Shown: positions 5,655 to 21,923 of the stretch, one piece after another
Layout: each line of letters begins with the position of its first letter
How positions within the stretch are numbered: position 1 is the first letter of the stretch
Source: Lachnospiraceae bacterium
Lineage (GTDB): Bacteria > Bacillota > Clostridia > Lachnospirales > Lachnospiraceae
Direction: 5' to 3'
NCBI GenBank assembly: GCA_022510605.1
Contig: JAFLTB010000017.1
Span: 1-41,473 of the forward strand
DNA length: 41,473 bases
Program-made: the position numbers and the translations under genes
Notes under the pieces: generated by a model
Told to the model about the DNA's origin: nothing
Seen by the model: the letters and a program-made list of their open reading frames with translations, nothing else
Databases searched by the model: none

Positions 5655-6250
5655 TTTCTTCCCCCCTTTCTGCGCCCGCCAACCTTTCTTGCTATTACCG
5701 AAAAAATAACGCCTGCCGCCGTGGAAATGATAGTAGCCACCAGTCCCATTCCAATAATGGCAGTAGGTGCCACGGAGCCATACTGGCTGCGGTAGGCAAT
5801 AATATTGACAGGAATCAACTGCAGCGAGGAAATATTAAGGATGAGAAAGGTACACATATCAGCGCTGGCAATGTGACTGCCATGGTTGAGTTCCTTTAAC
5901 TGCTCCATAGCCTTCAGCCCCACCGGCGTGGCCGCCCAGCCAAGCCCCAGGACGTTGGAAATTATATTGGCGGCCATGTATTCATTGGCCTTGTGGTCCT
6001 TTGGCACCCCAGGAAATAAAAAAGCAAGAACCGGCCGCAGCCCCCTTGTCAGGGCATCGATGATTCCTGCTTTCTTTGCAATATTCATAAGTCCTGTCCA
6101 CATGGACATGATGCCAAGCATTGTAACACAGAGCGTAACCGCTTCCTTTGACGAGTCAATCGCCGCTGTCCCCACCTGGCCCATCCGCCCGGTAAAAGCG
6201 GCAAACAATATGCCGATGAGTATCATAAAGCCCCATAGTTTGTTTAACAT
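5651..6250 (-). CDS. spmA: Spore maturation protein A
   Basis: 199-residue membrane protein, partner of SpmB. Gate-domain features are visible: LNKLWGFMILIGILFAAFTGRM at the N-terminus, a central KEAVTLCVTMLGIMSMWTGL helix, and NVLGLGWAATPVGLKAMEQL. The ATG at 6250 is chosen over the TTG at 6256 because AAAGGG lies seven bases before it and would be only one base from the TTG. It is the first gene of the spmA-spmB pair. Sporulation sigma-E control is known in Bacillus; no clear sigma-E site was recognised upstream here. Confidence 0.93.
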   Translation of the reverse strand: MLNKLWGFMILIGILFAAFTGRMGQVGTAAIDSSKEAVTLCVTMLGIMSMWTGLMNIAKKAGIIDALTRGLRPVLAFLFPGVPKDHKANEYMAANIISNVLGLGWAATPVGLKAMEQLKELNHGSHIASADMCTFLILNISSLQLIPVNIIAYRSQYGSVAPTAIIGMGLVATIISTAAGVIFSVIARKVGGRRKGGRN

Positions 6251-6347
6251 AGGCAAACCCTTTTTCTTTTATTCTATGAAAGAGGGAGGCGTGGTATGAC
6301 GGAAGGAAAGGTCAATATAGGGCAACTATTTTGTAGTTAAGGATATT

Positions 6348-6999: not shown

Positions 7000-8349
7000 C
7001 TAAAATAATAGTTCAAAATCATTTATGATTCTCTTACAAAACAAATCTGTATCATCAGAAATAATTTTTCGGTTTTCAACATCCACATAATAATCAACTT
7101 CTTCACAATCGTAAATACTGTCCTGTAAATATATAACTCCATCGTACATATAATTCTTATAATACAGTTGAGCAATCTGCGCTATACCAACTTCTTTTGG
7201 CAAATAAACTTCCCCCTTTGTATAAGCATATTTTTCCTCAGAAATAATCAAAAAATTATATCCTTTTCTTTTTAATTCAAGCATAAGTTTTTGAAGCAAA
7301 AAATCCTTATGCGGAATATTATTTCTCACCCCTAATATTGGAGTTTCACATGAACCAACATTTTGAGTCTTTTCTTTTAGCAGTCTTAAATATATTTTTT
7401 CATCCCATAATAATGAGTCAAAATCAGATCTCAACTTATTTATATTTTGTGGGGATAGTGTACCCAAATATGAAATTGCACCAATTTTATCTGCACATTT
7501 TTTTACATCCTCCAATTTGCTAATATCCGATTCTTTTGTTAATGCAATATTAACCATGCTGTTTCTGCCTTTATCTAAGATTTTTTCTCCACACACCCGG
7601 TGCATATTTCTTGTTGATGACATATATATCCACTTTACACTATTAAAATTAAACATATATACCATTTTATCCTTATTAGTAGAGTTATTTTCCAGGCAAT
7701 GCAATAATTGTTTCCATGTGAGTTTGTTATTTTTGTTTAGAATATTATATACGCATGCAGTAACAACTGGTGCAGCAAAACTGTTAGAACCATTAGATAC
7801 AAATCTTTTACCTTCTCTGGTAACAAACGATTGTTTTCCATTTGCCTTTATTTTTTCGAAATCATCGTAACATTTATTCATAAAAAACTCACCATTTGAT
7901 ACTTTATTGGTGTTTGCTACACTTAAGACCCAAAACAATGAACTTGGAAAGGAGCAAAGCCCCTCATTGTTACATGCCGCTACGATGTATGAACTGTTTT
8001 GAGCCAGTAAAGTAATAATTTCGTTTATCTTACTGACCCCTTTATGCAAAGTCCCCAGACTTAAATTAATCAATTTAATATTATTTCTTAAACACCATTT
8101 CAATGCCACATACAACCCCTCCACATCTCCCCGCTTACTTATCAGATCCAGAATTTTTATGCTCACATAAGTTGCGTCTTTAGCATACTTATCAATAATA
8201 CCACAGCATATGGTTCCATGTGTCATTTTTTCATATTTCGTCGTATCCGAAACAACTGCTCCTTCCGAAGTTACCATTAGTTTTGTAACCTTATCAGATA
8301 AATTAAGTATAAAATCATTAATTCCATCATCCACTATAGCTATTTTCAT
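7000..8349 (-). CDS. Cytoplasmic S8 (subtilisin-like) protease with extra C-terminal domain
   Basis: 449 residues. Residues 1-210 are a compact subtilase core with a full catalytic set: D7 in AIVDDGI, H44 in MTHGT, oxyanion N128 in CNNEG, and S190 in GSNSFAAP. There is no signal peptide and no propeptide, so it should work inside the cell, and leader removal from the precursor peptide is the obvious job. Residues about 240-449 are a second domain with TPILGVRNNIPHKD, then LMLELKRKGYNFLIISEEKYAY. This resembles the middle of the TIGR04066-like protein at 10958 (CPIVSIGEYGKD, then LLELRRQFVKLGYSVL). It is the last gene of the minus-strand peptide operon, 24 bp after the exporter. The ATG at 8349 has GGGGAG upstream. 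Confidence 0.88.
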   Translation of the reverse strand: MKIAIVDDGINDFILNLSDKVTKLMVTSEGAVVSDTTKYEKMTHGTICCGIIDKYAKDATYVSIKILDLISKRGDVEGLYVALKWCLRNNIKLINLSLGTLHKGVSKINEIITLLAQNSSYIVAACNNEGLCSFPSSLFWVLSVANTNKVSNGEFFMNKCYDDFEKIKANGKQSFVTREGKRFVSNGSNSFAAPVVTACVYNILNKNNKLTWKQLLHCLENNSTNKDKMVYMFNFNSVKWIYMSSTRNMHRVCGEKILDKGRNSMVNIALTKESDISKLEDVKKCADKIGAISYLGTLSPQNINKLRSDFDSLLWDEKIYLRLLKEKTQNVGSCETPILGVRNNIPHKDFLLQKLMLELKRKGYNFLIISEEKYAYTKGEVYLPKEVGIAQIAQLYYKNYMYDGVIYLQDSIYDCEEVDYYVDVENRKIISDDTDLFCKRIINDFELLF

Positions 8350-8373
8350 ATTCTCCCCTTCTGTCCTTTATTT

Positions 8374-10218
8374 CTATTTATTCCCTTCTGTATATCTTTC
8401 AGCTTGATAGTTGAATAATTCCGCATATCTCCCACTTTTACTTATAAGTTCATTGTGCGTTCCTTTTTCAATTATCTCTCCGTTCTCCAAAACTAAAATA
8501 TAATCTGCCGTTACCACATTTGATAAACGATGTGAAGTAAAGATAACTGTTTTACCTTTTGTCATCTTTGCCATTATTTTAAATATTTTATACTCTGCTT
8601 CCGGATCAAGATAGGCAGATGGTTCATCAAGAACAAGCGCTTCTGCGTTTCTATAAAATGCACGCGCTAACGCCAATTTCTGTTCTTGACCTCCTGATAA
8701 TTGAATGCCGTCACTTTCAAAATTCCTTCCTATATATGTATCCAAATTACCGTCAACAGATTTTAATATATCTTCAGCCTCACATTTATTTAAGATATCC
8801 TTAATTTCTTCATCCGACACAACGGCATTTTTTTTACTGAGTATTACATTGTCTCTAAGCGAAAATCCATAATTCACGTTTTTCTGAAAATAACTTGCGA
8901 ATCTATCTCTATATGAATTAATTTCGTATTCTTTTATATTATAATCATTTACAAGTATGGCACCATCTACTACGTCATATAATCTAAAAAGCAACTTAAT
9001 TAACGTGCTTTTGCCTGCACCATTTAATCCAACAATTGCAACCTTGTCACCCTTTTTTATCTTGAAATTAACATGATTTATTATCATTTTCCCTGTCCCA
9101 GGATACGAAAAAGAAACATTCCTAAATTCTATTTTTTCAATTTCAGTTATTCTTTTTTTACCAATATTTTCGATAACATTTTTATATCCAAAAAATTTTC
9201 TTATATTGTCTACTCTCAATTTATTATCGTATATTCTAATAAATGAACTAAATAAATAAAGTATTCCACTTGTGAGACTTGATAACATGCCTGAGTATAA
9301 AGAGTATTCACCAATTGAATAAATCCCCACCCAAACACTCCGTGCAATTACTAATAAGATAATTCCCATTAAAAGTTCAGGTAGCAAATTTACTGCTACT
9401 AGTATTATATATTGTTTCTTATAAATTTTCTTTCTCTTGTCATAAATACATCTCCATAACTTAATAAATTTTTTTCTGATAATGTTATCAAATTGGTAGA
9501 GGCGCATTTCACCAGCATAGTTTTTATCCATTGATATGGAAAACAAATAATCCCGCTGTCTTTCCTCTTTCATATTTTCCATATTGAAATCAAAAAGCTT
9601 TTTTGTGTAAAATCGGTCTACTAAACTTGCTGGCGAAGTAACGAGGATAAGTAAAGCAACAAAAATCCAATTTACTTTTAATACAACAATAGCTGCTCCA
9701 ATGGCTGTGACTAAAGCTGAACATGCATCCATTAAATTCCATACCATATTGCTTACTGCCTGAATATCCCAGCGGCTTCTCGTAATAACATCATAATATT
9801 CTGGATTATCAAAAAATTTCATGTCCATGGATTGGGCTTTAGCCATGATTTTATCTGACAATCTTTGCTTTATTAATTCTTCATGAAGCAATGATACATA
9901 ATCACTTATTTTCTGAACAATTAGCCCTAATATTGATATAAGAAAAATCCCTAACGACAAAAAAACAATATACTTAAAATTTTCTTTTCGTTTGGACAGG
10001 CTGTCAATGAGTTCTTTTAACATAAATGCAGACACAAAAGTCGTAATAGGTATAAGCAACTGCTTGCATACTCTTATAATAAAATAAAATGGTGATGCTG
10101 CAACGGAGACTTTTATGGCATATGCAATAGTCAAAACAAGGTCATAGGATAGTTTTTTCTTCACTTCACGTTTCTCCCTCTGTTCATTTTCTAAAAAGAT
10201 GGGAAGACATTTACTCAA
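8374..10218 (-). CDS. ABC exporter of the peptide cluster (fused TMD-NBD)
   Basis: 614 residues: an N-terminal six-helix exporter domain (about 25-330) and a C-terminal ATPase domain. The ATPase has Walker A GLNGAGKST (397-405), the LSGGQ signature, Walker B ALVLDEPS and a switch histidine in TSHRLS. No N-terminal C39 peptidase domain is present, so leader cleavage must be done by another protein, plausibly the S8 protease next door. The start is uncertain. TTG at 10218 has GGGAGG twelve bases upstream; GTG at 10164 has AGGGAG nine bases upstream. It lies between the precursor and protease genes and most likely exports the mature peptide. Sequence style matches the two exporters at 23735-27374. 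Confidence 0.93.
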   Translation of the reverse strand: MSKCLPIFLENEQREKREVKKKLSYDLVLTIAYAIKVSVAASPFYFIIRVCKQLLIPITTFVSAFMLKELIDSLSKRKENFKYIVFLSLGIFLISILGLIVQKISDYVSLLHEELIKQRLSDKIMAKAQSMDMKFFDNPEYYDVITRSRWDIQAVSNMVWNLMDACSALVTAIGAAIVVLKVNWIFVALLILVTSPASLVDRFYTKKLFDFNMENMKEERQRDYLFSISMDKNYAGEMRLYQFDNIIRKKFIKLWRCIYDKRKKIYKKQYIILVAVNLLPELLMGIILLVIARSVWVGIYSIGEYSLYSGMLSSLTSGILYLFSSFIRIYDNKLRVDNIRKFFGYKNVIENIGKKRITEIEKIEFRNVSFSYPGTGKMIINHVNFKIKKGDKVAIVGLNGAGKSTLIKLLFRLYDVVDGAILVNDYNIKEYEINSYRDRFASYFQKNVNYGFSLRDNVILSKKNAVVSDEEIKDILNKCEAEDILKSVDGNLDTYIGRNFESDGIQLSGGQEQKLALARAFYRNAEALVLDEPSAYLDPEAEYKIFKIMAKMTKGKTVIFTSHRLSNVVTADYILVLENGEIIEKGTHNELISKSGRYAELFNYQAERYTEGNK

Positions 10219-10260
10219 TTTGCGAAACGTCCTCCCAAATCTTCACAAAATACTAATATG

Positions 10261-10452
10261 TTATTTGCCACTCCATCCAGTTGCATTTACCCTATATGCA
10301 TCCCGCTGAAACATGTATTCTGTATTAACGTCGGTTTCCATATTGACCTTTCCACCACAGGAACAGCGCCCCTTACAAGTAAAACCACTACATGTACAGT
10401 AGGCTTCTACAGATGAAGTCAACATATTAGTTCTTCTGCTTAATTTTTTCAT
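10261..10452 (-). CDS. Cys-rich peptide precursor, CLI_3235-class-like
   Basis: 63-residue precursor beginning MKKLSRRTN. The leader ends near SSVEAY, followed directly by five cysteines: C19, C21, C26, C30 and C32 (CTCSGFTCKGRCSC). The tail after them is rich in polar and aromatic residues with no cysteine. A short basic leader with an EAY element followed by closely spaced cysteines is what I recall of CLI_3235-class bacteriocin precursors. The ATG at 10452 has an excellent AGGAGGTGATAAT site, so the longer frame from 10485 is rejected. The gene is followed by the exporter (42 bp) and preceded by the carrier-related gene, maturase and ligases. The cysteines are likely substrates for the radical SAM maturase; the product structure is unknown. 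Confidence 0.85.
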   Translation of the reverse strand: MKKLSRRTNMLTSSVEAYCTCSGFTCKGRCSCGGKVNMETDVNTEYMFQRDAYRVNATGWSGK

Positions 10453-10539
10453 ATTATCACCTCCTTTCCATAACAACTCCGCCATGACTTTGTGTTTACA
10501 CGAACTTGCAAAGCATAGCAGATCTCTTTGTCACTTTTT

Positions 10540-10560
10540 GAGCCTATGGCTCTGTTTTTT
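10540..10560 (+). terminator. Plus-strand terminator-like hairpin upstream of the precursor
   Basis: GAGCC-TAT-GGCTC followed by TG and six T on the plus strand. It lies in the leader of the precursor gene, which is read from the minus strand, where the hairpin is followed by A instead. If used, it would end an antisense RNA covering the precursor start. On the minus strand it could be a processing or stabilising hairpin. The rest of the 10486-10650 gap also contains an 8-bp inverted repeat, TAGCTTCT and AGAAGCTA (near 10574 and 10617). Confidence 0.4.
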
Positions 10561-10650
10561 ATAGTAACAACTAGCTTCTAATGGTATAATTAATTTATCA
10601 AAACCAATACGTCTAAAAGAAGCTAATTGCTATCTATCGCCGGCAAAATA

Positions 10651-10917
10651 TTAAAAGATATCCTTTTTTTGTTTTGTGTAAATCAAGTAAGCAATTTTTT
10701 TAATTGTAGAAACCCCATAATTCTCTGTCTCTTCAACAGCAAATTGTATCGAATATTCTTTTTCTATTTCCAATAAAAAATAAGCCAACTCCACTGCACT
10801 TAAATTAAAGTTTTTGCCTGTAAGGGGTTTGTTGATATTTTCACTGTTGCAAATACTACTTTTTAAACCGAACTTTTCAACTAATACCTTAAATAATTTT
10901 TCCTCTATTTTCTCCAT
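10651..10917 (-). CDS. Acyl-carrier-related protein lacking the phosphopantetheine serine
   Basis: 88 residues with the four-helix acyl carrier protein pattern (about 5-80). The line-up AVELAYFLLEIEKEYSIQF matches helix II of normal carriers (xVELVMALEEEF). At the place of the DSL motif it reads FNL, so the serine that carries 4'-phosphopantetheine is Asn (N38). It is therefore unlikely to hold an acyl group in the usual way. This matches what I recall as the peptide maturation system acyl carrier-related protein in clostridial peptide clusters. The ATG at 10917 has AAGGAG six bases upstream. A role as a docking or leader-binding module for the maturase is an inference. Confidence 0.8.
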   Translation of the reverse strand: MEKIEEKLFKVLVEKFGLKSSICNSENINKPLTGKNFNLSAVELAYFLLEIEKEYSIQFAVEETENYGVSTIKKIAYLIYTKQKKDIF

Positions 10918-10957
10918 GCCTATCTCCTTATATTTCTCACTTCAATATTTCATTATC

Positions 10958-12025
10958 TTATGATAATTTGTTTATGATATCATTTGCTAACTTTTGAATG
11001 CTTTCTGCAAAAAATGCATTTACATAACTTGTTAAAGGGTATTTTTCTTGCATTTTCTCTATCATTTCTTGGCAATGCAATAAATTTATATGACAAGTTA
11101 TAAATTCTGAATCTTCCCCTATTGCATTCGCATCAATAATTTGATTTGAAATTTCCACTGCATCTAAATTGCAATCATAAGAGTAACGATATTTTTTTAC
11201 TAATTTGTCACCAACTTCCTCATAATTACCATAAAGTACAGAAACAATATTGTAATCTGGCAGCAAGCCCTTCATCGTTAAATAGGACATTGCCCCATAT
11301 CCCAATGTGATTCTGCTATTATATCTATCAATAGAACCCGGTAGTTTTAACAATATAATATCTGGATGATATATTGCTTCATCTTCTCTTATTCTCCCTT
11401 TTAACAAATTAATACCTGATTCTATGCTATCTACAATTCCTGAAAGACAGTAATTGTAGTTGATAACATCCACCAACTCACTATAAGCATAGTCACTGTA
11501 GCACAAAACCGAATAGCCCAATTTGACAAATTGCCTTCGTAACTCCAGTAAGGTATAGATTCCATCTAAATCTTTTCCATATTCTCCAATAGACACAATA
11601 GGGCAACTTGGAGTATTTTCCGATAAAACTTTATTCGTATTTCTGGAAAAAACTACTATCTGTTTATTATATTCTTTACACATTTTTCTCTGTTTTTCCG
11701 AACCGGTATACATAGTCAATATTTTCTTTTCTTTATTCTTTAAAAATTCATGAATCAATATATCAATTTTCTTTTTGTCACAAAGATCAGTGTCTTCTGT
11801 TTCCAAATAAATTAAATAATCATATTTACCAATATTCAATGATTCTAACTTCAAAACTTGTATGCCTAGATTCATAATATTTTTTTGCCTGCAAAGGTCA
11901 TTATTTGATAATCCATTATCTCTAGTCAAACAAACTTCTACTTTATTTCCATCCATTCGCAAATTCCATGCAACCGCAAAAAGCGAATTGTTATATGGCA
12001 ATATTAAATAATTTTTTTTACTCAT
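10958..12025 (-). CDS. Peptide maturation system protein, TIGR04066-like
   Basis: 355 residues, predicted soluble, no signal peptide. The N-terminal half begins with a hydrophobic strand (YLILPYNNSLFAVAWNLR). The C-terminal half carries CPIVSIGEYGKDLDGIYTLLELRR, then GYSVLCYSDYAYSE and PDIILLKLPGSIDRYN, the style of a Rossmann/P-loop-like sheet without a clear Walker A. From memory this is the family found beside CcpM-type radical SAM maturases in clostridial peptide clusters. Its function is not established. Its ATG at 12025 has GAGGTGAG eight bases upstream and it overlaps the maturase gene by 8 bp. The middle part resembles the C-terminal domain of the S8 protease, suggesting both bind the same partner. 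Confidence 0.75.
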   Translation of the reverse strand: MSKKNYLILPYNNSLFAVAWNLRMDGNKVEVCLTRDNGLSNNDLCRQKNIMNLGIQVLKLESLNIGKYDYLIYLETEDTDLCDKKKIDILIHEFLKNKEKKILTMYTGSEKQRKMCKEYNKQIVVFSRNTNKVLSENTPSCPIVSIGEYGKDLDGIYTLLELRRQFVKLGYSVLCYSDYAYSELVDVINYNYCLSGIVDSIESGINLLKGRIREDEAIYHPDIILLKLPGSIDRYNSRITLGYGAMSYLTMKGLLPDYNIVSVLYGNYEEVGDKLVKKYRYSYDCNLDAVEISNQIIDANAIGEDSEFITCHINLLHCQEMIEKMQEKYPLTSYVNAFFAESIQKLANDIINKLS

Positions 12026-13427
12026 AATATTTTCTCACCTCATCCCTCAAAATTAATATTCTTAAATTATCTTCTGTTCCATTTTTAGCACGTTCACAAT
12101 TTGACAATCTTCTAACCTCATCTAATTGATTATCTGCGTCGGCATATTTAGCACATTGCAAACAGTATGTAAAATTCCAGCAATTTTTACACTGCTTTTC
12201 TGTTATCTTGCCTACATTTAATAATTTGGCGGCCTGCTCTAATTTAAACCCTTTAAACACGGAACCAATATTCATATTTTCAGAGACTTCACTTACCCGT
12301 TCGCATGGATAAAAATCGCCATTAATATTAACAAATAATCTATTCTTTCCTGGAATACAGGGCCCCGATGGTGCTGAAATGCTGGGAATATATAACATTG
12401 GCACTAAACGACTTTCAAATTCGTATATACTGCTTAAGTCACGCACTTCTACACTGTCTAAATTAGTGTTTGGATTTCTGACATATGCAAAAATGCTTCT
12501 GAATTTACAATATATATATTTCCACACAAAATTTTCAGAATAAACATTTTGTGTAATTCCACCTGAATCATCAATAATATTTGTATTGACATTACTTAAA
12601 TTCTTCACCCAGCCCTCGCTTACAAATTTTTGAATTTTTTCATAATCAAATTGTGGATCAAGCACCATATTTAACCCGACATATTCATTAAAATACTTAG
12701 GATGCCTGGCAAAAAATTTACGTGTATTTTCCAAAACATCTTTGTAGCTTCCCTTCCCATCTAACGCATACCGTCGATTAATATCATGAATTTCCTCTGG
12801 TCCGTCCATACTTATAGTCAACTGTACCTTGTTTTTTTCAAAAAAAGTTATAACATCATCTGTCAGCAAGGTTCCATTGGTTGTAATTGCATAACTCACG
12901 TCTTTTCCTGCATAAGTTGTGCTTATATACTGTATAATCTTTTTAATCAAAGAAAAATTCAACAGCGGCTCTCCGCCATAAAAGCCTATATTGACTTTTT
13001 TTGTGTCCACAGAATGATACATCAAAAAATCAACTGCTTTTTTTGCAATATCCCAGGTCATTTTTTGGTTCCCATGGGAACGCTGATTACTAACTGTTTT
13101 CATATCAGAATAAATACAATAGGAACATCTTAGATTACATGCCTGAGTTACTTGCAGCGTCATTTTTTCAATACTGCGGTCTAATACATCATCCAAAAAG
13201 CGTGTATAGAAATTTTCTATCTTTTCTATTTCATGGTCCGAAATGATTTTTTTGTTAAGCATTTCAGAAATACATGTACACTCAGTATCATTTACCCGCT
13301 TGTTCTGAATCATTTTATGCAAACAATCGTACTGATACTGTGATATTTCTGAAATACAATTATAATTTGCATCAAAAACATAATATCCATTTATTGTTTT
13401 AATTAATTTTATCAGCAGCCTTTTCAT
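12018..13427 (-). CDS. ccpM: Radical SAM peptide maturase (CcpM-like)
   Basis: 469 residues. An N-terminal segment (1-85) could recognise the leader. The radical SAM core has CX3CX2C at C97, C101 and C104 (QVTQACNLRCSYC) and the GGE SAM-binding motif in GFYGGEPLLN near 150. The C-terminal SPASM-type cysteine region includes YPCERVSE, KQCKNCWNFTYCLQCAKY and a final SNCERA, which would bind auxiliary iron-sulfur clusters. This is the architecture of RiPP maturases that form thioether or C-C links in Cys-rich peptides, and it fits the family named Cys-rich peptide radical SAM maturase CcpM. The ATG overlaps the stop of the upstream gene (ATGA). The likely substrate is the five-cysteine peptide at 10261. 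Confidence 0.9.
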   Translation of the reverse strand: MKRLLIKLIKTINGYYVFDANYNCISEISQYQYDCLHKMIQNKRVNDTECTCISEMLNKKIISDHEIEKIENFYTRFLDDVLDRSIEKMTLQVTQACNLRCSYCIYSDMKTVSNQRSHGNQKMTWDIAKKAVDFLMYHSVDTKKVNIGFYGGEPLLNFSLIKKIIQYISTTYAGKDVSYAITTNGTLLTDDVITFFEKNKVQLTISMDGPEEIHDINRRYALDGKGSYKDVLENTRKFFARHPKYFNEYVGLNMVLDPQFDYEKIQKFVSEGWVKNLSNVNTNIIDDSGGITQNVYSENFVWKYIYCKFRSIFAYVRNPNTNLDSVEVRDLSSIYEFESRLVPMLYIPSISAPSGPCIPGKNRLFVNINGDFYPCERVSEVSENMNIGSVFKGFKLEQAAKLLNVGKITEKQCKNCWNFTYCLQCAKYADADNQLDEVRRLSNCERAKNGTEDNLRILILRDEVRKYYE

Positions 13428-14656
13428 CCCTCTTCCCTCATTTCATTTATAAAAAAATTTGCTTTTCCGTTATGATTTAATAATATATAATCCACGCATT
13501 GAAATTCGTAACCACATTGTTTTAAGTAATCATTATCAAGATAATCAAGAAACTTCTTTTTTATCTCCGATTCCCACCCTTTATATCTTGAGTCCAAGAC
13601 AAATTTTACACTAAATTTATCAATTTCCTTCTGCACTACTTGAAACTGTTGTATAACGGCACCATGTTGTTCATTAATAAACTCAATTGGTTTCAAAAAT
13701 AGATAGCATGGAAGTTCTCCCTCTTTGGTTACTATTTTCTCTGCGCTTCTTCCTTTTTCCAATATTATTTCGCTGTACTGTTTCCTTCCTTTATGAAAAA
13801 CAATTTTCCCCTTATCTCCTATTCTGTAACGAATAAATGGCATTGCATAGTTTGTCAATGATGTAACTACAATCTCTCCATAAACATCTTCTGGATTATT
13901 TTTCAAAATTTCTGTATGTACATTTGATTCTAGACAAACTAATTGTTTATCCGGGTTGCGAAAAGCAATTGCATTTGTCTCAATACTTCCATACAAATTA
14001 CCAATCTTGCACCCAATAGTCGATTTGGTATTATCTTCTAAAGTATTCAATAGTACTTCGCCTGTAAATTCAACGTATTTTAAATTTTTAAATACCGGCA
14101 GTTGATTTTTGATAATGTAATTTAGCAATATATGCATTACACTGGGCTGAATTTGCATCCATTTCGGATCAAAATCATATATCTTTTGATATATCTCCTG
14201 CAAAAATTCAAAAGTCAGGCATTTTTTCGAAATTCCCAAACTTGTCTTTGTGCATATATACGATTCGTTATCATCAATGACTAAATGATTTCCTTTATAC
14301 ACAGTCGTATAAAAATAACAAAATTTATCTTGAGGCATTATCCCATAATACTGTCTCCTCAAATTCCAAAGTTCAATATGCGAATTATTTTCATTTTGCC
14401 TATCCCAAAATATTTTCAGATATTCACCGGAGGTTCCCGATGTTCTTCGTAATATAAGTTTTTCCTGATATTTGTATTGCTTATATCTTGTAGCTAGACA
14501 CTCTTTACCATTAGCCTGAATTGCTTTTTTATCTACAGTCGGAATTGATTCTATCTGCAGATTCATATTAGCAACATTTATATCCTTATATAAGTTTGAG
14601 TAAAAGGGAACATTTTCTTTTGCAAAACATATTATATTATGTACCGCTTCTTTCAT
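13424..14656 (-). CDS. PaaK/CapK-like adenylate-forming enzyme
   Basis: 410 residues, predicted cytoplasmic, of the ANL superfamily branch that includes phenylacetate-CoA ligase and CapK. Visible motifs are the phosphate loop TSGTSG (72-77), LYGSIETNA (adenine/aspartate motif near 215), RYRIGDKGKI near 280, and a lysine near the C-terminus (NHNGKANFF). It would activate a carboxylate as an acyl-AMP. It overlaps the carrier-protein gene by 20 bp and the maturase by 4 bp, so translation is tightly coupled. The activated substrate cannot be read from sequence; the acceptor is plausibly the carrier protein encoded just upstream or the peptide itself. Confidence 0.82.
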   Translation of the reverse strand: MKEAVHNIICFAKENVPFYSNLYKDINVANMNLQIESIPTVDKKAIQANGKECLATRYKQYKYQEKLILRRTSGTSGEYLKIFWDRQNENNSHIELWNLRRQYYGIMPQDKFCYFYTTVYKGNHLVIDDNESYICTKTSLGISKKCLTFEFLQEIYQKIYDFDPKWMQIQPSVMHILLNYIIKNQLPVFKNLKYVEFTGEVLLNTLEDNTKSTIGCKIGNLYGSIETNAIAFRNPDKQLVCLESNVHTEILKNNPEDVYGEIVVTSLTNYAMPFIRYRIGDKGKIVFHKGRKQYSEIILEKGRSAEKIVTKEGELPCYLFLKPIEFINEQHGAVIQQFQVVQKEIDKFSVKFVLDSRYKGWESEIKKKFLDYLDNDYLKQCGYEFQCVDYILLNHNGKANFFINEMREEG

Positions 14657-14924
14657 CTTCTTTCATCCCCTCCAATGTTTTAATTTTCACATTTATACAG
14701 TCAATCAAATTATTTATTTGCCAATTATGATTTAGCATTGTTTCATAATCATCAAAGTAAAAATGATACTCTTCTTCGATATATGAAATAAGTTCTACTA
14801 ATTGCAAAGAATCAAATTCCAGGTCTTCTACCAGGCTCATATTACCTATATCATCCTTTTTTTCTATTTCTTTTTTTGAAATAGACTCTAATATTTCTTC
14901 CATTCTTTTTATTGTACAATTCAT
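14637..14924 (-). CDS. Acyl carrier protein
   Basis: 95-residue acyl or peptidyl carrier protein. The phosphopantetheine attachment motif EFDSLQLVELISYIEEEYHF is intact, with serine S39. The acidic helix II that docks partner enzymes is clear. The ATG at 14924 has AAGGGA six bases upstream. It sits between two adenylating enzymes, so one probably loads it. This is not the fatty-acid ACP: no fab genes are near, and it is AT-rich like the rest of the island. It differs from the serine-less carrier-related protein at 10651, so the cluster holds both a working and a non-working carrier. Confidence 0.87.
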   Translation of the reverse strand: MNCTIKRMEEILESISKKEIEKKDDIGNMSLVEDLEFDSLQLVELISYIEEEYHFYFDDYETMLNHNWQINNLIDCINVKIKTLEGMKEDERSGT

Positions 14925-14968
14925 CTTTTTTCCCTTATACGATTTTCCAAAAATCGCATTCCTTTCTT

Positions 14969-16375
14969 TTAGATTAAAGTCAATAAATTACCATATTGTA
15001 TTTTTCCAGAACTGTTATGCGGTATTTTTTTAATTACATGAATTGAAATTTGAAAATGTGGAATATTCAATTTCCTAAACAATCGTTTTTTTATTAATTC
15101 ACCTTCAATCGGATTGACAATGAAAATATATATTATCCCATCCTTCTCTACGGCTGCGCACTGCACTATTTTAAATTCATCTTTAATAACGGATTCAATA
15201 TCATCCAATTCAATCCTTCTTCCACATATTTTGCAGAATCTTGTTTTTCTTCCCACTAAGTATAAGTAACCATCTTCATCAATATATCCAATATCTCCCG
15301 TATGTAATGTATAACGTTGTTTAACTGATATTAAATCTTTTCTTGATTCCGCATATCCAGCAAAAACACTATCCCCTTCAACAACAACTTCCCCACAACT
15401 ATTGTCATTCTGCGCTTCAAATAACTCTTTTGTGCAATCAATACTAATATTCAAATCAGGTACTGCCTTGCCAACACTGCCAATTTTGTCTTCATGCTTA
15501 TTAAGCAGATAGCAACTAATTCTGGCCGTCGCCTCTGTTTGACCATACATAATATAAAAATTAATACCACTTAGTTTGGCATACTCTAAATATTTTTTTT
15601 GCAAATTGATATTCAATCTCCCTCCCGCCTGCGTCATTACCCTTAACGACGGATATTTTTTATGTCTAAACTTTAGGCGTTCCAGATTTTCATACATACG
15701 TGGAACTCCGGATAGAGACGTAAAATTATTTTTTTCAAAAAAATCCCATGCTTTTCCATCTAAAATAGAAGATTCCGTCAACAATATACTTGCACCACGA
15801 TATAGATATGTATTTACTATGGAGATTCCATATGTATAACTAATGGGCAAATTCAGCGGGCTGACATCATCGCTCCTGATATTTAATGCTTTTATAATAG
15901 CTCTTGCATTGCTCATAAGATTCTTATAACTCAAGCAAACATATTTTCTGTTTCCTGTTGAACCAGATGTAGGTAGCAATAAAGCAATATTCTTATCAAT
16001 ACTATCATTTTTCTTTGCCTCACTCCTACTATTGCTCATCAAATAATAATTCCCATAATGTAAAACGGTGGAATAACCATGAATTTCCTCGTATTTCCCC
16101 CACACGTATTCAGGCCTATAGATGTTACACAAAATTGATATTTGTGCTTTATCTATCTGAGAATCTACCATTATTACTGGTTTTTTGTTTTGTATACAAG
16201 AAATATATCCCAAAACACATTCATAGGTGTTTTCGCAAATAATCATCACTAAACTATTAGAATCGATTTTCTGAGCAAATATCTTCTGTTCCTTATACAA
16301 TGTTAAGTATGAGACCCTTCTGCCTTTATCATCTATTAAAGCAAGTTTCTCTTTATACTGTTTAAAATTCCACAT
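14969..16375 (-). CDS. Acyl-AMP ligase (ANL superfamily)
   Basis: 468 residues with the standard AMP-binding motif order: LLPTSGSTGNRK near 133 (P-loop), YGQTEATARIS, LHTGDIGYIDEDGYLYLVGR, and the catalytic C-terminal lysine K458 in SSGKIQYGNL. The reaction would be carboxylate plus ATP to acyl-AMP, then transfer to a thiol. The next gene, 44 bp downstream, is the carrier protein, which is the natural acceptor. It is the first gene of the peptide operon, preceded by a GGAAAGG site. The substrate could be a fatty, aromatic or amino acid; residues defining the pocket were not interpreted. Confidence 0.88.
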   Translation of the reverse strand: MWNFKQYKEKLALIDDKGRRVSYLTLYKEQKIFAQKIDSNSLVMIICENTYECVLGYISCIQNKKPVIMVDSQIDKAQISILCNIYRPEYVWGKYEEIHGYSTVLHYGNYYLMSNSRSEAKKNDSIDKNIALLLPTSGSTGNRKYVCLSYKNLMSNARAIIKALNIRSDDVSPLNLPISYTYGISIVNTYLYRGASILLTESSILDGKAWDFFEKNNFTSLSGVPRMYENLERLKFRHKKYPSLRVMTQAGGRLNINLQKKYLEYAKLSGINFYIMYGQTEATARISCYLLNKHEDKIGSVGKAVPDLNISIDCTKELFEAQNDNSCGEVVVEGDSVFAGYAESRKDLISVKQRYTLHTGDIGYIDEDGYLYLVGRKTRFCKICGRRIELDDIESVIKDEFKIVQCAAVEKDGIIYIFIVNPIEGELIKKRLFRKLNIPHFQISIHVIKKIPHNSSGKIQYGNLLTLI

Positions 16376-16416
16376 TTATATATTTACCTTTCCATTTTCT
16401 TCTTATCACTATCCCT

Positions 16417-16422
16417 ATTATA
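16417..16422 (-). promoter_or_regulatory. -10-like element before the peptide operon
   Basis: On the minus strand a perfect TATAAT (16422-16417) lies 41 bp before the acyl-AMP ligase ATG, but the -35 position is only TTTTTT, part of the preceding terminator. Either the promoter is activator-dependent or transcription comes by read-through of the terminator just upstream. Confidence 0.35.
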
Positions 16423-16438
16423 ATTATCCCCCATAACC

Positions 16439-16480
16439 AAAAAAACTCCCTAAAGGTAAGAATCTACTTACTTTTAGGGA
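16439..16480 (-). terminator. Rho-independent terminator or attenuator before the peptide operon
   Basis: A 14-bp stem (16447-16460 with 16467-16480, 13 Watson-Crick pairs and one G-U) with a six-base loop, followed on the minus strand by seven T. It lies upstream of the ligase gene and downstream of the lipoprotein, so it separates the two transcripts and could also act as an attenuator. Confidence 0.8.
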
Positions 16481-16535
16481 TATGCCATACACAAACCTTT
16501 ATTTATTTTTGCAAGTTGTCTTTATCAGACCAGAC

Positions 16536-16578
16536 AAAAATACCATGAAACGCTAAAATTTTACACATTTCATGGTAT
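16536..16578 (-). terminator. Rho-independent terminator of the lipoprotein gene
   Basis: ATACCATGAAA and TTTCATGGTAT form an 11-bp stem with a 17-base loop, followed by five T on the minus strand, 24 bases after the lipoprotein stop. Confidence 0.75.
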
Positions 16579-16601
16579 CTAAATCATATCCAGTCTTGTT
16601 A

Positions 16602-17708
16602 TTATTCGTTCAAAATATATTTATATAGATATGGTGTTCCGTACTCATCACTGCTGCGATTCTTATTTGAATACCAGATATAAAATTGCTCCTGATCTTC
16701 TCCAGTCACGAAGGCTCCCTCTATTTTATAGTCTTCATTCTCCAATGCATTATTATTGCTGATTATTAGTTCATCCTGCTCCGTTTTTACATCTGTGCGG
16801 TGAATACCCATTAAATTCACTGTATAGAATGCATTTGATTCTTCATCTGGGATAAAAAACGTATCACCCTTCGTTGTGATAGAATTACAGGATATAGTTT
16901 TTTCTAAAGTCCCTGATGCAATATCAAAGACATTCAGTTTGTCACAATTATCATCTGCCACGGTGTACAAGTTATTCCCCAGTACAAAAGAGCGGACAAA
17001 TGTTAATTCACCCGAATCATTCAGCATAGTCCGAATGCCATCATACATAAGTTTCTTTTTCCCTGTCTTCAAGTTATATAAAGCCCAATTACCCTCTGCA
17101 AAAATCCCCGTTTTATTATCTATCACATGGAACCCATTTAAACGGTTAATTTCACAAGATGCCATATCTTTTCCCAAACCTTCATTTTTAAGTTCTTCTA
17201 CATAACCATTGGGTGAAATAGAGACTAAATGAAAAGACAAATTAAGTTCATCCTCTTCATTTTTGACCGGCTCCTCCTTTGACATCCAAAGATAAAGATT
17301 CCCATCACTGCCAACTACTATTTCAAACGGCGTATCTCCAACTTTAGAAGCCATGCGGCTTAGATTGTCACTCCACGTTGCTTTCTCTTTTTTCCATGTT
17401 CCATCCTCCTGAAGGATACTAACATAATATGCTGTTTCTTTTTTCCCTTCATAAAATGTATACATGGCTGGTTGTCCCATTTCGTTGAGCAGAATACCAC
17501 CTATATATTCTTCTTCATCAAAGTTCAAAGGAATCTGCGTTTCCACATAATTGAAACCTATCGCAGCGGAAGAGACGGTTTCCTGTGTTGTCTCCACTGA
17601 ATCTGAAGAATTACTGCACCCACAGAGCATAATAGCAGAGAATAATGCTGTCAGAAATATTGATACTATTCTTCGATACAATCTTATGTTTTTCATTCTA
17701 CTTATCAT
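16602..17708 (-). CDS. Lipoprotein with a BlaR1-type sensor-like domain
   Basis: 368 residues. The N-terminus is a basic stretch, a hydrophobic helix and a lipobox, IMLCGC, with the lipidated cysteine at C31; the mature protein should be anchored outside the membrane. The remainder is a repeat-rich, probably beta-propeller-like domain (DGNLYLWMS, LVSISPNG, WALYNLKTGKK, NVFDIASGTLEK, LYKYILNE). Its pattern matches the extracytoplasmic C-terminal domain of the BlaR1-like proteins at 29067 and 31280 (DGNIILMP, YDWRAGE, VRNMHTGEVEYT, LQYVIQE). The ATG at 17708 has GGGGGAAAG upstream. It has its own promoter and terminator inside the peptide cluster; an immunity or sensing role is a guess. Confidence 0.8.
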   Translation of the reverse strand: MISRMKNIRLYRRIVSIFLTALFSAIMLCGCSNSSDSVETTQETVSSAAIGFNYVETQIPLNFDEEEYIGGILLNEMGQPAMYTFYEGKKETAYYVSILQEDGTWKKEKATWSDNLSRMASKVGDTPFEIVVGSDGNLYLWMSKEEPVKNEEDELNLSFHLVSISPNGYVEELKNEGLGKDMASCEINRLNGFHVIDNKTGIFAEGNWALYNLKTGKKKLMYDGIRTMLNDSGELTFVRSFVLGNNLYTVADDNCDKLNVFDIASGTLEKTISCNSITTKGDTFFIPDEESNAFYTVNLMGIHRTDVKTEQDELIISNNNALENEDYKIEGAFVTGEDQEQFYIWYSNKNRSSDEYGTPYLYKYILNE

Positions 17709-17741
17709 TTTCTTTCCCCCTTTTTGACATAAACTATATAT

Positions 17742-17770
17742 ATAGTAACCCACAGTAAAATACTTGTCAA
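17742..17770 (-). promoter_or_regulatory. Sigma-A promoter of the lipoprotein gene
   Basis: On the minus strand, TTGACA (17770-17765), 17-bp spacer, TACTAT (17747-17742), 34 bp before the ATG. Confidence 0.75.
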
Positions 17771-17851
17771 TACATAAAATATCCTTTGTGATTTTGCAAT
17801 TTTATTTGCATTATCTTCTGCTTTCCTTCTGCTATAACACAAGAACCAACA

Positions 17852-19219
17852 TCATTCCACATAATTACCAAATGATATATTTAATATATGTATATTTTCG
17901 TTTTGAGGCAAAGTAATTGATATAACTTTTTTATCATTTGATATACTATACTTTCTTTCATAGACCTGCGCCAGTTCCATGCCATTATACTCTTTTGAAT
18001 GATATTGTATTTTTTTTGTAACGTTTTCGCCGAAATCGGCGGAGCCCTTCCAATCGGAAAAATAAATATTTATATTTTCTTCCATATTCTCATAGGCTAT
18101 AGTCAACGTATCTACATCTCTTTTTAACCCATAGCCTTCTATGTATATAAAATCAAATGCCTTATTAATATTGACTACGCTCTGTCCGCAGCACTCCACC
18201 ACTCTTGTATGATATATTTTTAATGGTTCTACACTTGTTTTGTTATAATACTTATCAAGACTTAATTTCCAACAATCCTCTTTGACTGTACGCTGTTCTG
18301 GTTTCTCATTACTTCTCAAAAATTCTATTTCTAAATTGATAGCCTTATTTAATTTATCTAGAAATTCATTTTCCTTTACCCGTCCATCAACAACTTGTTT
18401 CATTGCTAATATTCTGCATAAATTCCATGAAGTAATGATTTCCTTCATCTTCTCCATAATTTCACTATTTTGAATGTAGTATTCCAGAAAATCATAAAAC
18501 TGTTTTCTTCCCCCATAAATCTCTACTAACATTCTATAAAATGGATCACTCCATGCAAACTGTTGTTTCTTAATTGAACACCAAATATTTTCACTCTCTA
18601 TATCATAATAAAATTCCAGCAAACTCTCCTTTTCAACCTTAATAAGCTTATTAATAGATAATTTTAAATTATTTTTATCTATTTCCAATGGCCTTTTGTC
18701 CACCTTGTTTTCCACCGTGTAATACGACAAACCATATAAACCTTTTTTCAAATCATTTATGTCAATGGAACTTCTACATACTAATGGCGCTGTATCTGAA
18801 AAGATATATTTTGCTCCTTCTTTCTTTGTCAAAATTATGCAGTGACGAAAATACTCTATTTGTGCAGGATCAACTTCCTTGTTATGATATTCCCATTTTG
18901 TAGGGCAAAAATACCCATTAATATGCACTATTACCATCTTTCCCATGCTTAATTCATTATCAATAAACTGGATGCCTGTCATAGCATCATCTATAGGTTT
19001 ATATATAAAGCGAATTCCTGTCTTTTTATAAATATCTATTTCTATATCATTATTTTGAACTAGATACTTTTCCCATGGTAATCCATTTTTTATCTTTTTA
19101 ACAAATCTCCATGATTGACTAAATATATCATAAAAATTAGTACAATTAATATTTTTAACTACACTAAGTTCAGAATTTCTATAGCAATCTAATCCATCTA
19201 TCCTAAACGATTCCAACAA
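17852..19219 (-). CDS. BtrH-like acyl-transfer protein (papain-like fold)
   Basis: 455 residues, no signal peptide. The first 160 residues look like the BtrH N-terminal domain: DCYRNSELSV with a candidate nucleophile C12, H126 in YFRHCIILT, and D142 in YIFSDTAP. In butirosin biosynthesis BtrH transfers an acyl group from an acyl carrier protein to an acceptor amine. The C-terminal two thirds are unrecognised, with helical segments and a beta-rich end. The start is a TTG at 19219 with AGGAGG seven bases upstream, well supported. It follows metK by 60 bp with no terminator between, so they are co-transcribed. With a carrier protein and two ligases nearby, an acyl-transfer role in the same pathway is the best inference. 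Confidence 0.65.
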   Translation of the reverse strand: MLESFRIDGLDCYRNSELSVVKNINCTNFYDIFSQSWRFVKKIKNGLPWEKYLVQNNDIEIDIYKKTGIRFIYKPIDDAMTGIQFIDNELSMGKMVIVHINGYFCPTKWEYHNKEVDPAQIEYFRHCIILTKKEGAKYIFSDTAPLVCRSSIDINDLKKGLYGLSYYTVENKVDKRPLEIDKNNLKLSINKLIKVEKESLLEFYYDIESENIWCSIKKQQFAWSDPFYRMLVEIYGGRKQFYDFLEYYIQNSEIMEKMKEIITSWNLCRILAMKQVVDGRVKENEFLDKLNKAINLEIEFLRSNEKPEQRTVKEDCWKLSLDKYYNKTSVEPLKIYHTRVVECCGQSVVNINKAFDFIYIEGYGLKRDVDTLTIAYENMEENINIYFSDWKGSADFGENVTKKIQYHSKEYNGMELAQVYERKYSISNDKKVISITLPQNENIHILNISFGNYVE

Positions 19220-19279
19220 ATGCTCACCTCCTTTCTTTCTAGTTCAGCGCAAAATACATTATATATTTTTTGACAGGAA

Positions 19280-20452
19280 TCACATACCCAAATAGCGATA
19301 TTCAATTTTTTCCCATGGTAAATCCAAATCACTTCTACCAACCTGACCATATACAGCCAGCGGCTCATAAGAAGGTCTACATAAATTAAATTTCTGAATA
19401 ATTGCGGAAGGAGTCAAATCCAACTGTTTTTGCACATTATCTGCTATCTTTGAATCAGAAATTTTTCCTGTCCCAAAGGTGTCCACATATATTCCGATGG
19501 GTTCCACAACTCCAATCGCATACGCCAACTGTACATCTACTCTTTCACATATTCCAGAGGCAACCAGATTTTTTGCAATATACCTTGCCATATATGCACC
19601 ACTACGATCAATTTTTGATGAATCTTTGCCAGAAAAAGCCCCTCCGCCATGGCGTCCGAATCCTCCATATGTATCAACAATAATTTTCCTTCCAGTAAGC
19701 CCACAATCTGCCTTTGCACCTCCTGATACAAATTGTCCAGTTGGATTAATAAACACTTTTGTTGTCTTTGTAATCATATTTTCGGGTATTACTTGCAAAA
19801 TTACATGATTAAATAAGTCCCTGTATAATTGTTCATAACTAATTTCAGGAAGATGTTGGGCGGATAAAACAATAGTTTTACAACTAACTGGTTTCATATT
19901 TTTTGAATATTCAACTGAAATCTGCGCTTTACCATCGGAGAGAATATAATCTATCTCCTTACTCTTTCGCACTGCGTCTAATTTTTTTACAAGCATGTGC
20001 GCCAATATAATTGGTGTTGGCATATAGTCTATGGTCTCATTCGTAGCATAACCATGCATAATGCCTTGGTCACCTGCACCCAAAACATTTTTTGAAACAC
20101 TGTTTTTTGTTTCAAAAGATTGAACTACTCCCCTGTATATATCCTTTGATTGTGGCTCAATATTTATTTCAATTACACAATTTTTTGCTGATAGTCCATG
20201 GTATTCCTCTGTATAACTTTTTTCGCATAACACTCTGCGAACAATTTTAGGTATATCAATATTGGCTTTTGATGAAACTTCTCCTGCCACAATTACTTTT
20301 CCCGGCATAATCATTGTTTCGCAGGCTACCCTTGAATGCGAATCAACCTCCAAGTACGCATCTAAAATTGCATCCGATATTTGGTCACACACCTTATCAG
20401 GATGCCCTTCTGTTACCGATTCAGAACTAAAAACAGTTTCTATGTTACCCAT
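19280..20452 (-). CDS. metK: S-adenosylmethionine synthase, cluster-associated copy
   Basis: 390 residues. Makes SAM from methionine and ATP. Family signatures are intact: SVTEGHPDKVCDQISDA near the N-terminus, GAGDQGIMHGYATNET, GLTGRKIIVDTYGG and GGGAFSGKD. It is full length, so it should be active. The ATG at 20452 has GAGGTGG six bases upstream; a longer frame to 20467 is not preferred. It is AT-rich like the peptide island and lies between the HTH-PurM gene and the BtrH-like gene, far from other housekeeping genes. This suggests a dedicated SAM supply for the radical SAM maturase. Whether the genome has another metK cannot be seen here. Confidence 0.95.
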   Translation of the reverse strand: MGNIETVFSSESVTEGHPDKVCDQISDAILDAYLEVDSHSRVACETMIMPGKVIVAGEVSSKANIDIPKIVRRVLCEKSYTEEYHGLSAKNCVIEINIEPQSKDIYRGVVQSFETKNSVSKNVLGAGDQGIMHGYATNETIDYMPTPIILAHMLVKKLDAVRKSKEIDYILSDGKAQISVEYSKNMKPVSCKTIVLSAQHLPEISYEQLYRDLFNHVILQVIPENMITKTTKVFINPTGQFVSGGAKADCGLTGRKIIVDTYGGFGRHGGGAFSGKDSSKIDRSGAYMARYIAKNLVASGICERVDVQLAYAIGVVEPIGIYVDTFGTGKISDSKIADNVQKQLDLTPSAIIQKFNLCRPSYEPLAVYGQVGRSDLDLPWEKIEYRYLGM

Positions 20453-20486
20453 TGTAAGCCACCTCATTCTTTTGTTTCATTTCTAA

Positions 20487-20514
20487 ATTATAGTAATCTC
20501 TTCTTTAAAAACAA
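20487..20514 (-). promoter_or_regulatory. Promoter of metK-BtrH-like operon
   Basis: On the minus strand, TTGTTT (20514-20509), a 16-bp spacer and TATAAT (20492-20487), 34 bp before the metK ATG. It follows the terminator of the upstream gene, so metK has its own transcript start. Confidence 0.55.
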
Positions 20515-20588
20515 GGTGAAATAAGTATAAAAAACAGGAACAATTTTTCTGATATTTTGGCTCTGTAGTTTTTTCTTTATAGGCACAT

Positions 20589-20619
20589 AAAAAATAGACT
20601 ATTGCAATCAACAGTCCAT
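20589..20619 (-). terminator. Rho-independent terminator of the HTH-PurM gene
   Basis: An 11-bp stem including two G-U pairs (20594-20604 with 20609-20619), a CAAT/ATTG tetraloop, and six T on the minus strand, about 57 bases after the stop codon. Confidence 0.7.
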
Positions 20620-20675
20620 AGTTTGTTTAATTTCCTCTACTGAAAACTTCCCTAACGAAACCTCTCTATTAATTC

Positions 20676-21923
20676 CTACCATAACAATTCATTATAAAAA
20701 TCAACCTTGTGTTGTCCTTTTTCCACCTTTCCTATTGGGTAACAATTGTAGTACTGTCCAATATGTTCCTGAACAGACTTAACATATTCAGGCGACAAAA
20801 CAACACACATACCAACACCGCAATTAAATGTATTTAACATTTCATTGTTGCTAATATTTCCTTGTTTTTTAATAAAATTAAAAATAGGTAATATTTCAAT
20901 GCTTGATAAATCAATTCGTGCACATAATCCATCTGGTATAATTCTGCTCAAATTACCTTGAATCCCTCCCCCTGTTATATGGGCCAGACCATTATATATG
21001 TCCTTTCCAAAAAATTCTTTCAAACATTGATAATATGGCGTATGCGGTTTCATAATTTGCTCAACAAATGTCAATTCTTCAACCTTCTCTAATTTAATTT
21101 CTGGATGTTTATCCATCAATAATCTGATTAATGAGTAACCATTTGTATGCACTCCATTCGATTCAATAGCCAGTACTATATCACCGTCTTTTATTCTATG
21201 ACCATCTATGACACAAGTTCTATCTGCAATACCTGCAATTGTAGACGAAAGAATATAGGTTCCCTCCTGAACCACCTGAGGTTGTATAGATGTTTCACCA
21301 CCAACTAATGAACACTCATTTTCTTTACACGCATTTGCTATTCCCTTTATAAATGCGTTTATAGTATCTTTCTCCGCTTTGCCACACACTATTGTATCCA
21401 ATACTGCCAACGGTTTTGCCCCCATAACAATCACATCATTTACTAAATGGTTAACCATATCATGACAGATAGATTCTGTATAACCATATTCCATAGCCAA
21501 TTTTTGCTTTGAACCAGGTTCTTCTGATTTCAATATCAACACTGGGTTCTCAATATCTTCAAAATTAATATCATACAAAGAGGCAAATGGACCAACTCCA
21601 TTTAAAACCCGTTTATCCTCACTTACCAATAATTTTGACATATCTTTTTTCAAGGAATCAGAATATGAAATGTCAACTCCAGCTTTGTCATAAGACAATG
21701 CCTCTTTATCGCTAATACTCGCCTTCAGCAAATCATCAACAGATACATGCAAGGCCTGCGATAATGCGGGCAAAATTTCAATGTTCGGATAGACAATTCC
21801 ATTTTCCCACTTTGAAACCGCTTGAAATGTTATACCCAATTCATCTGCCAACTTCTGTTGTGTCATATGATTGCGTTTTCGCTGTTCACATATAAATTTA
21901 CCCATCTTTAGATTGTTCAACAT
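20676..21923 (-). CDS. XRE helix-turn-helix fused to PurM (AIR synthetase)-like domain
   Basis: 415 residues with two parts. Residues 1-66 are an XRE DNA-binding domain (MGKFICEQRKRNHMTQQKLADELGITFQAVSKWENG). Residues about 76-415 align along their full length with PurM: SYDKAGVDIS, HLVNDVIVMGAKPLAVLD, CSLVGGET, GVHTNGYSLIR, LAHITGGGI, MLNTFNCGVGM. PurM closes FGAM to aminoimidazole ribonucleotide with ATP. The usual GTDGVGTK loop reads KSEEPGSK (132-139), so substrate binding may have changed. The ATG at 21923 has GGGAGG five bases upstream. No other purine genes are near. It may be a regulator using a PurM fold as ligand sensor, or an enzyme that controls its own expression; the sequence alone does not decide. 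Confidence 0.88.
   Translation of the reverse strand: MLNNLKMGKFICEQRKRNHMTQQKLADELGITFQAVSKWENGIVYPNIEILPALSQALHVSVDDLLKASISDKEALSYDKAGVDISYSDSLKKDMSKLLVSEDKRVLNGVGPFASLYDINFEDIENPVLILKSEEPGSKQKLAMEYGYTESICHDMVNHLVNDVIVMGAKPLAVLDTIVCGKAEKDTINAFIKGIANACKENECSLVGGETSIQPQVVQEGTYILSSTIAGIADRTCVIDGHRIKDGDIVLAIESNGVHTNGYSLIRLLMDKHPEIKLEKVEELTFVEQIMKPHTPYYQCLKEFFGKDIYNGLAHITGGGIQGNLSRIIPDGLCARIDLSSIEILPIFNFIKKQGNISNNEMLNTFNCGVGMCVVLSPEYVKSVQEHIGQYYNCYPIGKVEKGQHKVDFYNELLW

Follow-up and report, generated by a model that had tools for sequence, protein, structure and literature searches.

A carrier-protein module in a divergent CcpM-type radical SAM peptide cluster of a Lachnospiraceae bacterium

SacP23 of Paenibacillus polymyxa #23 is an antimicrobial peptide that was expressed in Bacillus subtilis (m/z 3404), and its N-terminus is blocked, according to the available part of the paper (PMC10731318). 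A cluster of Roseburia intestinalis L1-82 is an earlier listed system of the CcpM type (PMC4573289, available part). Both systems share with the locus described here a radical SAM maturase, TIGR04066, a carrier-related protein, an ABC exporter, and an S8 protease, and SacP23 also shares a CLI_3235-type precursor. The core of our cluster is already published in SacP23-type systems. However, their gene lists, so far as the available text of the two papers gives them, include no AMP ligase, ordinary acyl carrier protein (ACP), PaaK, or BtrH, unlike the present locus (PMC10731318, PMC4573289).

The DNA analysed here, called the window, is a stretch of 41,473 nucleotides from a Lachnospiraceae bacterium. 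An initial annotation, made from the letters alone, had described in it a CLI_3235-like peptide cluster extended by an acyl-activation module. We compared this cluster with related loci in other genomes.

The core system and the layout of the locus

Twelve genes (MetK counted) lie in a row on the minus strand at 7000-20467 of the window (Table 1). Each gene named in the initial annotation was found as an open reading frame at its place on this strand; the lipoprotein-like gene was absent from that list. Four system-specific models matched proteins of the window with E-values of 9e-6 or better, all below the curated cut-offs, and the TIGR04068 score of the CcpM-like protein exceeds that of the next family by 258 bits. 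Because all four scores fall short of the cut-offs, the locus should be regarded as a divergent relative and not as a plain member; judged by these scores, the window holds a divergent CLI_3235/CcpM peptide system. The exporter and the S8 protease both lie within the locus. The family scans agree, for the four system-specific models at scores under the cut-offs, with the core that had been named (precursor, CcpM-like enzyme, TIGR04066-like protein, carrier-related protein, exporter, and S8 protease).

Table 1. Genes of the cluster and the neighbouring HTH-PurM gene, with positions in the window
Feature	Position	Strand	Evidence
S8 (subtilisin-like) protease, likely leader removal	7000..8349	-	PF00082 E 1.2e-16; best NCBIfam match QhpE 72.5 bits, below cut-off
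ABC exporter, permease and ATPase	8374..10218	-	PF00005 and PF00664 above cut-off
Cys-rich precursor peptide, 63 aa	10261..10452	-	TIGR04065 25.8 bits (cut-off 26); sequence read
Carrier-related protein without phosphopantetheine Ser	10651..10917	-	TIGR04069 36.9 bits (cut-off 70); Ala at the Ser place
TIGR04066-like protein	10958..12025	-	TIGR04066 90.4 bits (cut-off 200) across residues 5-355
CcpM-like radical SAM maturase	12018..13427	-	TIGR04068 457.8 bits (cut-off 500); PF04055
PaaK-like adenylate-forming enzyme	13424..14656	-	NF045666 71.5 bits, below cut-off
Acyl carrier protein (ACP), DSL attachment site	14637..14924	-	PF00550 21.7 bits (cut-off 20.8); motif
AMP-binding acyl ligase (AMP ligase)	14969..16375	-	PF00501 E 2.1e-40; acyl- and A-domain-ligase matches
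Lipoprotein-like protein	16602..17753	-	No family above thresholds; "lipoprotein" by eye from N-terminus
BtrH-like papain-fold transferase candidate	17852..19219	-	PF14399 21.7 bits, E 2.5e-4 (gathering cut-off 29.7)
Second methionine adenosyltransferase (MetK)	19280..20467	-	TIGR01034 489.4 bits (cut-off 309.4, passed)
HTH-PurM fusion	20676..21923	-	Passes its family cut-offs

The precursor was read as 63 aa from an ATG behind a ribosome-site-like GGAGG, and the listed open reading frame of 74 aa starts at 10485. The genes of ACP and PaaK overlap by 20 nt, those of PaaK and CcpM by 4 nt (ATGA), and those of CcpM and TIGR04066 by 8 nt. ACP, PaaK, CcpM, and TIGR04066 are tied together by these overlaps, which bear out the earlier proposal that ligases, carrier, and maturase form one unit. 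The G+C content is 0.29-0.36 across 7-22 kb and 0.38-0.50 in the preceding 7 kb and the following 5 kb, with another drop to 0.34 at 27-29 kb. An Rfam comparison gave no match. In addition, a whole spmA-like gene (named by eye) adjoins the cluster at 5651-6256, and a second ABC exporter gene, which resembles the exporter of locus L040 (tblastn 300 bits), lies outside the low-G+C stretch at 23735-25642.

The window ACP has the attachment motif FDSL, which supports the functional carrier protein proposed earlier, and the carrier-related protein has Ala at the same place in the alignment. Among the carrier-related proteins, this Ser was missing in 32 of the 33 aligned cases. The exception is that of L221, which has a Ser at the aligned place with no D before it. 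Those of L046, L052, L219, and L222 had appeared to be Ser-bearing in a simple motif test; the sequences were read and have no Ser there.

Solved relatives of the PaaK A1 profile are phenylacetate-CoA and PaaK-like ligases. Like the window protein, the BtrH-like proteins of L040, L149, and L230 score under the PF14399 cut-off, and a protein of L081 passes it (34.0 bits). The window BtrH-like protein also matched L158:15173-16102 (pairwise BLAST, E 5e-10, with no composition correction). Its Cys12 and His126, candidate catalytic residues of a papain-like site, are common to one protein of the carrier cluster L158. A lipoprotein-like gene is also present at the corresponding place in L040. Homology of the window protein with its counterparts in L040 and L081 was considered and is not established, since the similarity is weak or absent.

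Recurrence of the carrier module in CcpM loci

To estimate how often the module occurs with CcpM, TIGR04068 was used in searches against four genome samples, which overlap in some genomes. At E 1e-60, matches were found in 22 of 391 class genomes and 3 of 39 genus genomes; at E 1e-70, 21 of the 397 family genomes and 2 of the 31 from the order of G217 had a match. The regions retrieved were 20 for the 41 class matches, 19 further ones for the 34 family matches, and L230. In total, 46 loci were read widely (the window, L040-L059, L006, L008, L131, L133, L149, and L211-L230), some of them cut by contig ends; L149 begins just before PaaK. Loci L131, L133, and L149 entered through PaaK searches, and the CcpM searches recovered the same genes. 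The count covers the 34 loci that scored at least 280 with a profile built from the CcpM proteins of the window and L040. Excluded beforehand were L045, whose CcpM is split into two fragments, and 11 loci in which the radical SAM enzyme is distant; neither PaaK nor ligase was found in any of these 12.

A PaaK gene directly before CcpM was found in 6 of the 34 loci (the window, L040, L131, L133, L149, and L230), and in all six the two genes overlap or are at most 25 nt apart. The AMP ligase was present in three (the window, L040, and L230), each of which has PaaK, and so was an ACP with a DS site. There were BtrH-like genes in five loci (the window, L040, L149, L230, and L051) and MetK in two (the window and L040). 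The ligase was found in 3 of 6 loci with PaaK versus 0 of 28 without it (Fisher 0.003), and the BtrH-like gene in 4 of 6 versus 1 of 28 (Fisher 0.002); neither test takes kinship into account, and the loci were not sampled at random. L131 and L133 almost duplicate each other; with one of them dropped the values were 0.002 for the ligase and 0.0006 for the BtrH-like gene. The PaaK gene of L230 was found by a profile search. With the same profile, 61 short CcpM loci with 1.5-kb flanks were searched, and PaaK was found in the same six. None of them showed the ligase, because it lies farther out than 1.5 kb. Within the genus, PaaK lies just upstream of CcpM in all three CcpM-bearing genomes among 39. 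Since PaaK and ligase are both missing from 28 of the 34 loci, the module is optional. In L131 and L133, PaaK and CcpM are not accompanied by a nearby ligase, DS-site ACP, or BtrH-like gene, and thus PaaK has no need of these partners in the same locus. Elsewhere in the genomes of L131 and L133 there are PaaK loci that do include ACP- or BtrH-like genes.

The BtrH-like gene of L051 is a separate case. It is part of a PKS protein (14966-19901) that ends in a carrier domain and then a BtrH-like domain (domains by eye), as expected for an enzyme acting on carrier thioesters. This PKS, with a Ser-bearing ACP on its side, stands beside the CcpM cluster with IS genes in between. We left it out as support for the set.

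Two loci, both from another order than the window, are parallel to it. L040 (G217) has nearly the same gene order at protein identities of 22-50%: ABC, MetK, LoaP antiterminator, BtrH-like, lipoprotein-like, AraC-type regulator, AMP ligase, ACP, PaaK, CcpM-like, a protein at the TIGR04066 place, a 48-aa Cys-containing peptide, and GNAT. Its BtrH-like protein is at the edge of detection (PF14399 15 bits; E 2e-5 with a profile built for this analysis). Its TIGR04066-like protein is 22% identical to that of the window, and neither this protein nor the 48-aa peptide matched any model in the family scan. In L230 (G818), ACP, PaaK, and CcpM (469 bits) are contiguous and are followed by TIGR04066 (252.7 bits, above the cut-off), the carrier-related protein (TIGR04069 25.3 bits, below the cut-off), the precursor (TIGR04065 19.5 bits), S8, and two ABC genes; the AMP ligase, the BtrH-like gene (PF14399 17.5 bits), and a nitroreductase-like gene (by eye) are divergent, and the L230 stretch has no MetK. 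The PaaK and ACP genes overlap in L040 and L230, as in the window.

Proposed pathway and its alternatives

From the genes, their order and overlaps, their recurrence, and the ACP serine, all observed directly, we infer a pathway of five steps. The CcpM-like enzyme, judged by its family, would form thioether cross-links on the Cys-rich core. A small or fatty acid would be adenylated by the AMP ligase and loaded onto the adjacent ACP. The PaaK-like enzyme might then carry out a second activation or a condensation, acting on either the carrier or the peptide; this is the least clear step, its gene being coupled to both the ACP and the CcpM genes. An amine of the peptide could receive the ACP-bound acyl group through the BtrH-like transferase, by analogy with BtrH of butirosin. 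The simplest choice of acceptor would be the N-terminal amine, because the L149 precursor, recognised by reading with no model match, has no Lys. Finally, the S8 protease may cut off the leader, and the product may leave through the ABC transporter. In butirosin, likewise, a carrier-bound acyl group is handled by a papain-like transferase of the BtrH_N type, although the acceptor there is an aminoglycoside amine, and the window differs in its sub-cut-off BtrH match and two AMP-forming enzymes (PMC10318531, PMC8430323, available parts). BtrH is termed an ACP:aminoglycoside acyltransferase, with a domain close to the C39 and C70 families (PMC10318531, available part).

Our best reading of the sequence is that a carrier-bound acid would be placed on a radical SAM peptide, most simply on its N-terminus. 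The initial annotation had offered a carrier-delivered group or an activated carboxyl end; we favour the former, and both stay conditional. That this is a sactipeptide- or ranthipeptide-type radical SAM cluster with a free-standing carrier-protein acylation module built in seems to us a balanced proposition, about evenly poised between right and wrong. The fuller version is more tentative: a ribosomal/thiotemplate hybrid, assembled at least twice, in which a BtrH-like enzyme of papain fold draws its building block from a dedicated ACP, itself supplied by two adenylating enzymes, and attaches it to the N-terminus of a radical SAM cross-linked peptide. Against acylation of the peptide stand L131 and L133, where PaaK occurs apart from the rest of the module, the window BtrH-like match under the Pfam cut-off, and L051, where a Ser-bearing ACP and a BtrH-like domain lie on the far side of IS genes and PaaK is missing.

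PaaK might instead activate the peptide's own carboxyl (C-terminus or Asp/Glu), leading to an ester, an amide, or ring closure, and the ligase, ACP, and BtrH-like protein would add a separate group in some clusters only. PaaK is the most constant addition, it abuts CcpM, and in L131 and L133 it is there with the rest of the module missing. In addition, the L040 PaaK also matches the BagE/FevW bagremycin/ferroverdin synthetase (61.4 bits, far below the cut-off of 800), which is an ester-forming ligase. Nevertheless, gene overlap links PaaK just as closely to the ACP in the window, L040, and L230, and an AMP ligase and an ACP are frequent at those PaaK loci of the genus and family that lack CcpM; we consider this alternative unlikely. 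We think it similarly improbable that two pathways are adjacent, with the module making an independent small molecule that is co-expressed, and perhaps co-exported, with the peptide. The module does make something without CcpM at many loci, so that a separate product is possible, and its parts occur without CcpM in the same genome (L078 and L080) and family; L158, with PaaK and another radical SAM enzyme, resembles a free-standing carrier pathway. However, PaaK and CcpM are closely coupled in all six loci, their pairing recurs with different ligase subfamilies, and the window unit has a single exporter. The low G+C of the stretch, and the location of a relative of its MetK on an element that looks mobile, might suggest a chance juxtaposition in a low-G+C island. 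According to the initial annotation, this would hold if homologous core clusters never carried the ligase, carrier, and BtrH set and these genes had separate conserved neighbours elsewhere; core clusters with the set do recur, in L040 and L230 from another order, and we give chance almost no credence.

Origin, accessory genes, and known acylated peptides

L040 and L230 have ligases with 52% identity to each other, and the window ligase groups with family ligases of non-CcpM loci. A single clade of the three ligases was rejected (log-likelihood 232 lower, AU p 0.02, with long branches present). One origin of the PaaK-CcpM loci was not rejected in the CcpM tree (AU p 0.43) or in the PaaK tree (AU p 0.16 for five loci, 0.11 for six loci, and 0.058 for a four-locus subset). 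Meanwhile, the window and L040 share 51% identity in MetK, and each of the two proteins is at least as close to housekeeping copies. The ligase at least, and MetK perhaps, probably joined twice or was replaced, and the set was probably assembled at least twice. Assembly more than once argues for a joint function, and it is better evidence for this than a single inherited operon. In plasmid searches, the CcpM and ligase queries found only distant kin (best below 60% identity), and the BtrH-like query had no match.

At E 1e-20, PaaK kin turned up in 14 of the 39 genus genomes and 8 of the 391 class genomes, and at E 1e-40 in 10 of the 397 family genomes; the genome of the window has three further PaaK genes. 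Many of these kin lack CcpM and neighbour ACP, AMP ligase, BtrH-like, S8 protease, or leucine-rich-repeat protein genes. Sets of PaaK, ACP, ligase, and BtrH without CcpM indicate that the module is a general building set, taken up by some CcpM clusters. In the genus, L078, L080, L116, L120, and L122-L126 have PaaK near large S8 proteases, often with an ACP or AMP ligase, and several also have leucine-rich-repeat proteins. L158 (2729-17889 of G580:C67) has two or three BtrH-like proteins, two AMP ligases, three ACPs, a radical SAM enzyme (not CcpM), PaaK, an ABC transporter, and a protein that we take to be FkbH-like; it looks like a free-standing carrier pathway.

The genome of the window also has a housekeeping MetK (G000:C1:39062-40222), and that of G217 has two MetK genes as well. 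A second MetK of G425 is 77% identical to that of the window and is on an element without peptide genes. This stretch (L167, 2093-10609 of G425:C15) splits spmA by about 8 kb and has, by eye, a PRPP synthetase-like gene and a serine recombinase gene. The dedicated metK of the initial annotation is supported by the MetK of the L040 operon, but the G425 copy speaks against it; the window MetK may supply SAM for the maturase or may be a passenger. A reading of it as a self-resistance copy was considered and set aside. The HTH-PurM fusion, earlier counted as part of the system, is probably outside the unit. It occurs in 5 of 39 genus genomes, the other four of which have no CcpM, and a terminator-like hairpin lies between it and metK, although such sites are not enriched (7 found vs 5.4 expected from shuffles). 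The fusion is found in the window, L171-L174, and L181, and the copy of L181 stands first in a stretch that also includes AMP ligase and ACP genes.

The extension of a known peptide system is real and recurring. We found no report of a ligase/ACP/PaaK/BtrH extension of a CcpM cluster in the accessible open-licence PMC literature, and as far as searched it is unreported there. If our reading is true, a radical SAM maturase with ligase, ACP, PaaK, and BtrH at its side would represent a new route to acylated cross-linked peptides. The module may also illuminate the largely Ser-less carrier-related protein of CcpM systems, and the six PaaK-CcpM loci make up a shortlist for further work. Furthermore, the blocked N-terminus of SacP23 makes N-terminal chemistry worth a look (PMC10731318, available part). 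The available text of PMC9505594 calls lipidation still very rare among ribosomal peptides and names no radical SAM enzyme with an AMP ligase, ACP, PaaK, and BtrH among acylated RiPPs. As proposed for the window, the selidamides, lipolanthines, and goadvionins of that paper are ribosomal peptides that gain an acyl group; unlike the window, the selidamides use GNAT enzymes, and the lipolanthines and goadvionins are polyketide hybrids (PMC9505594).
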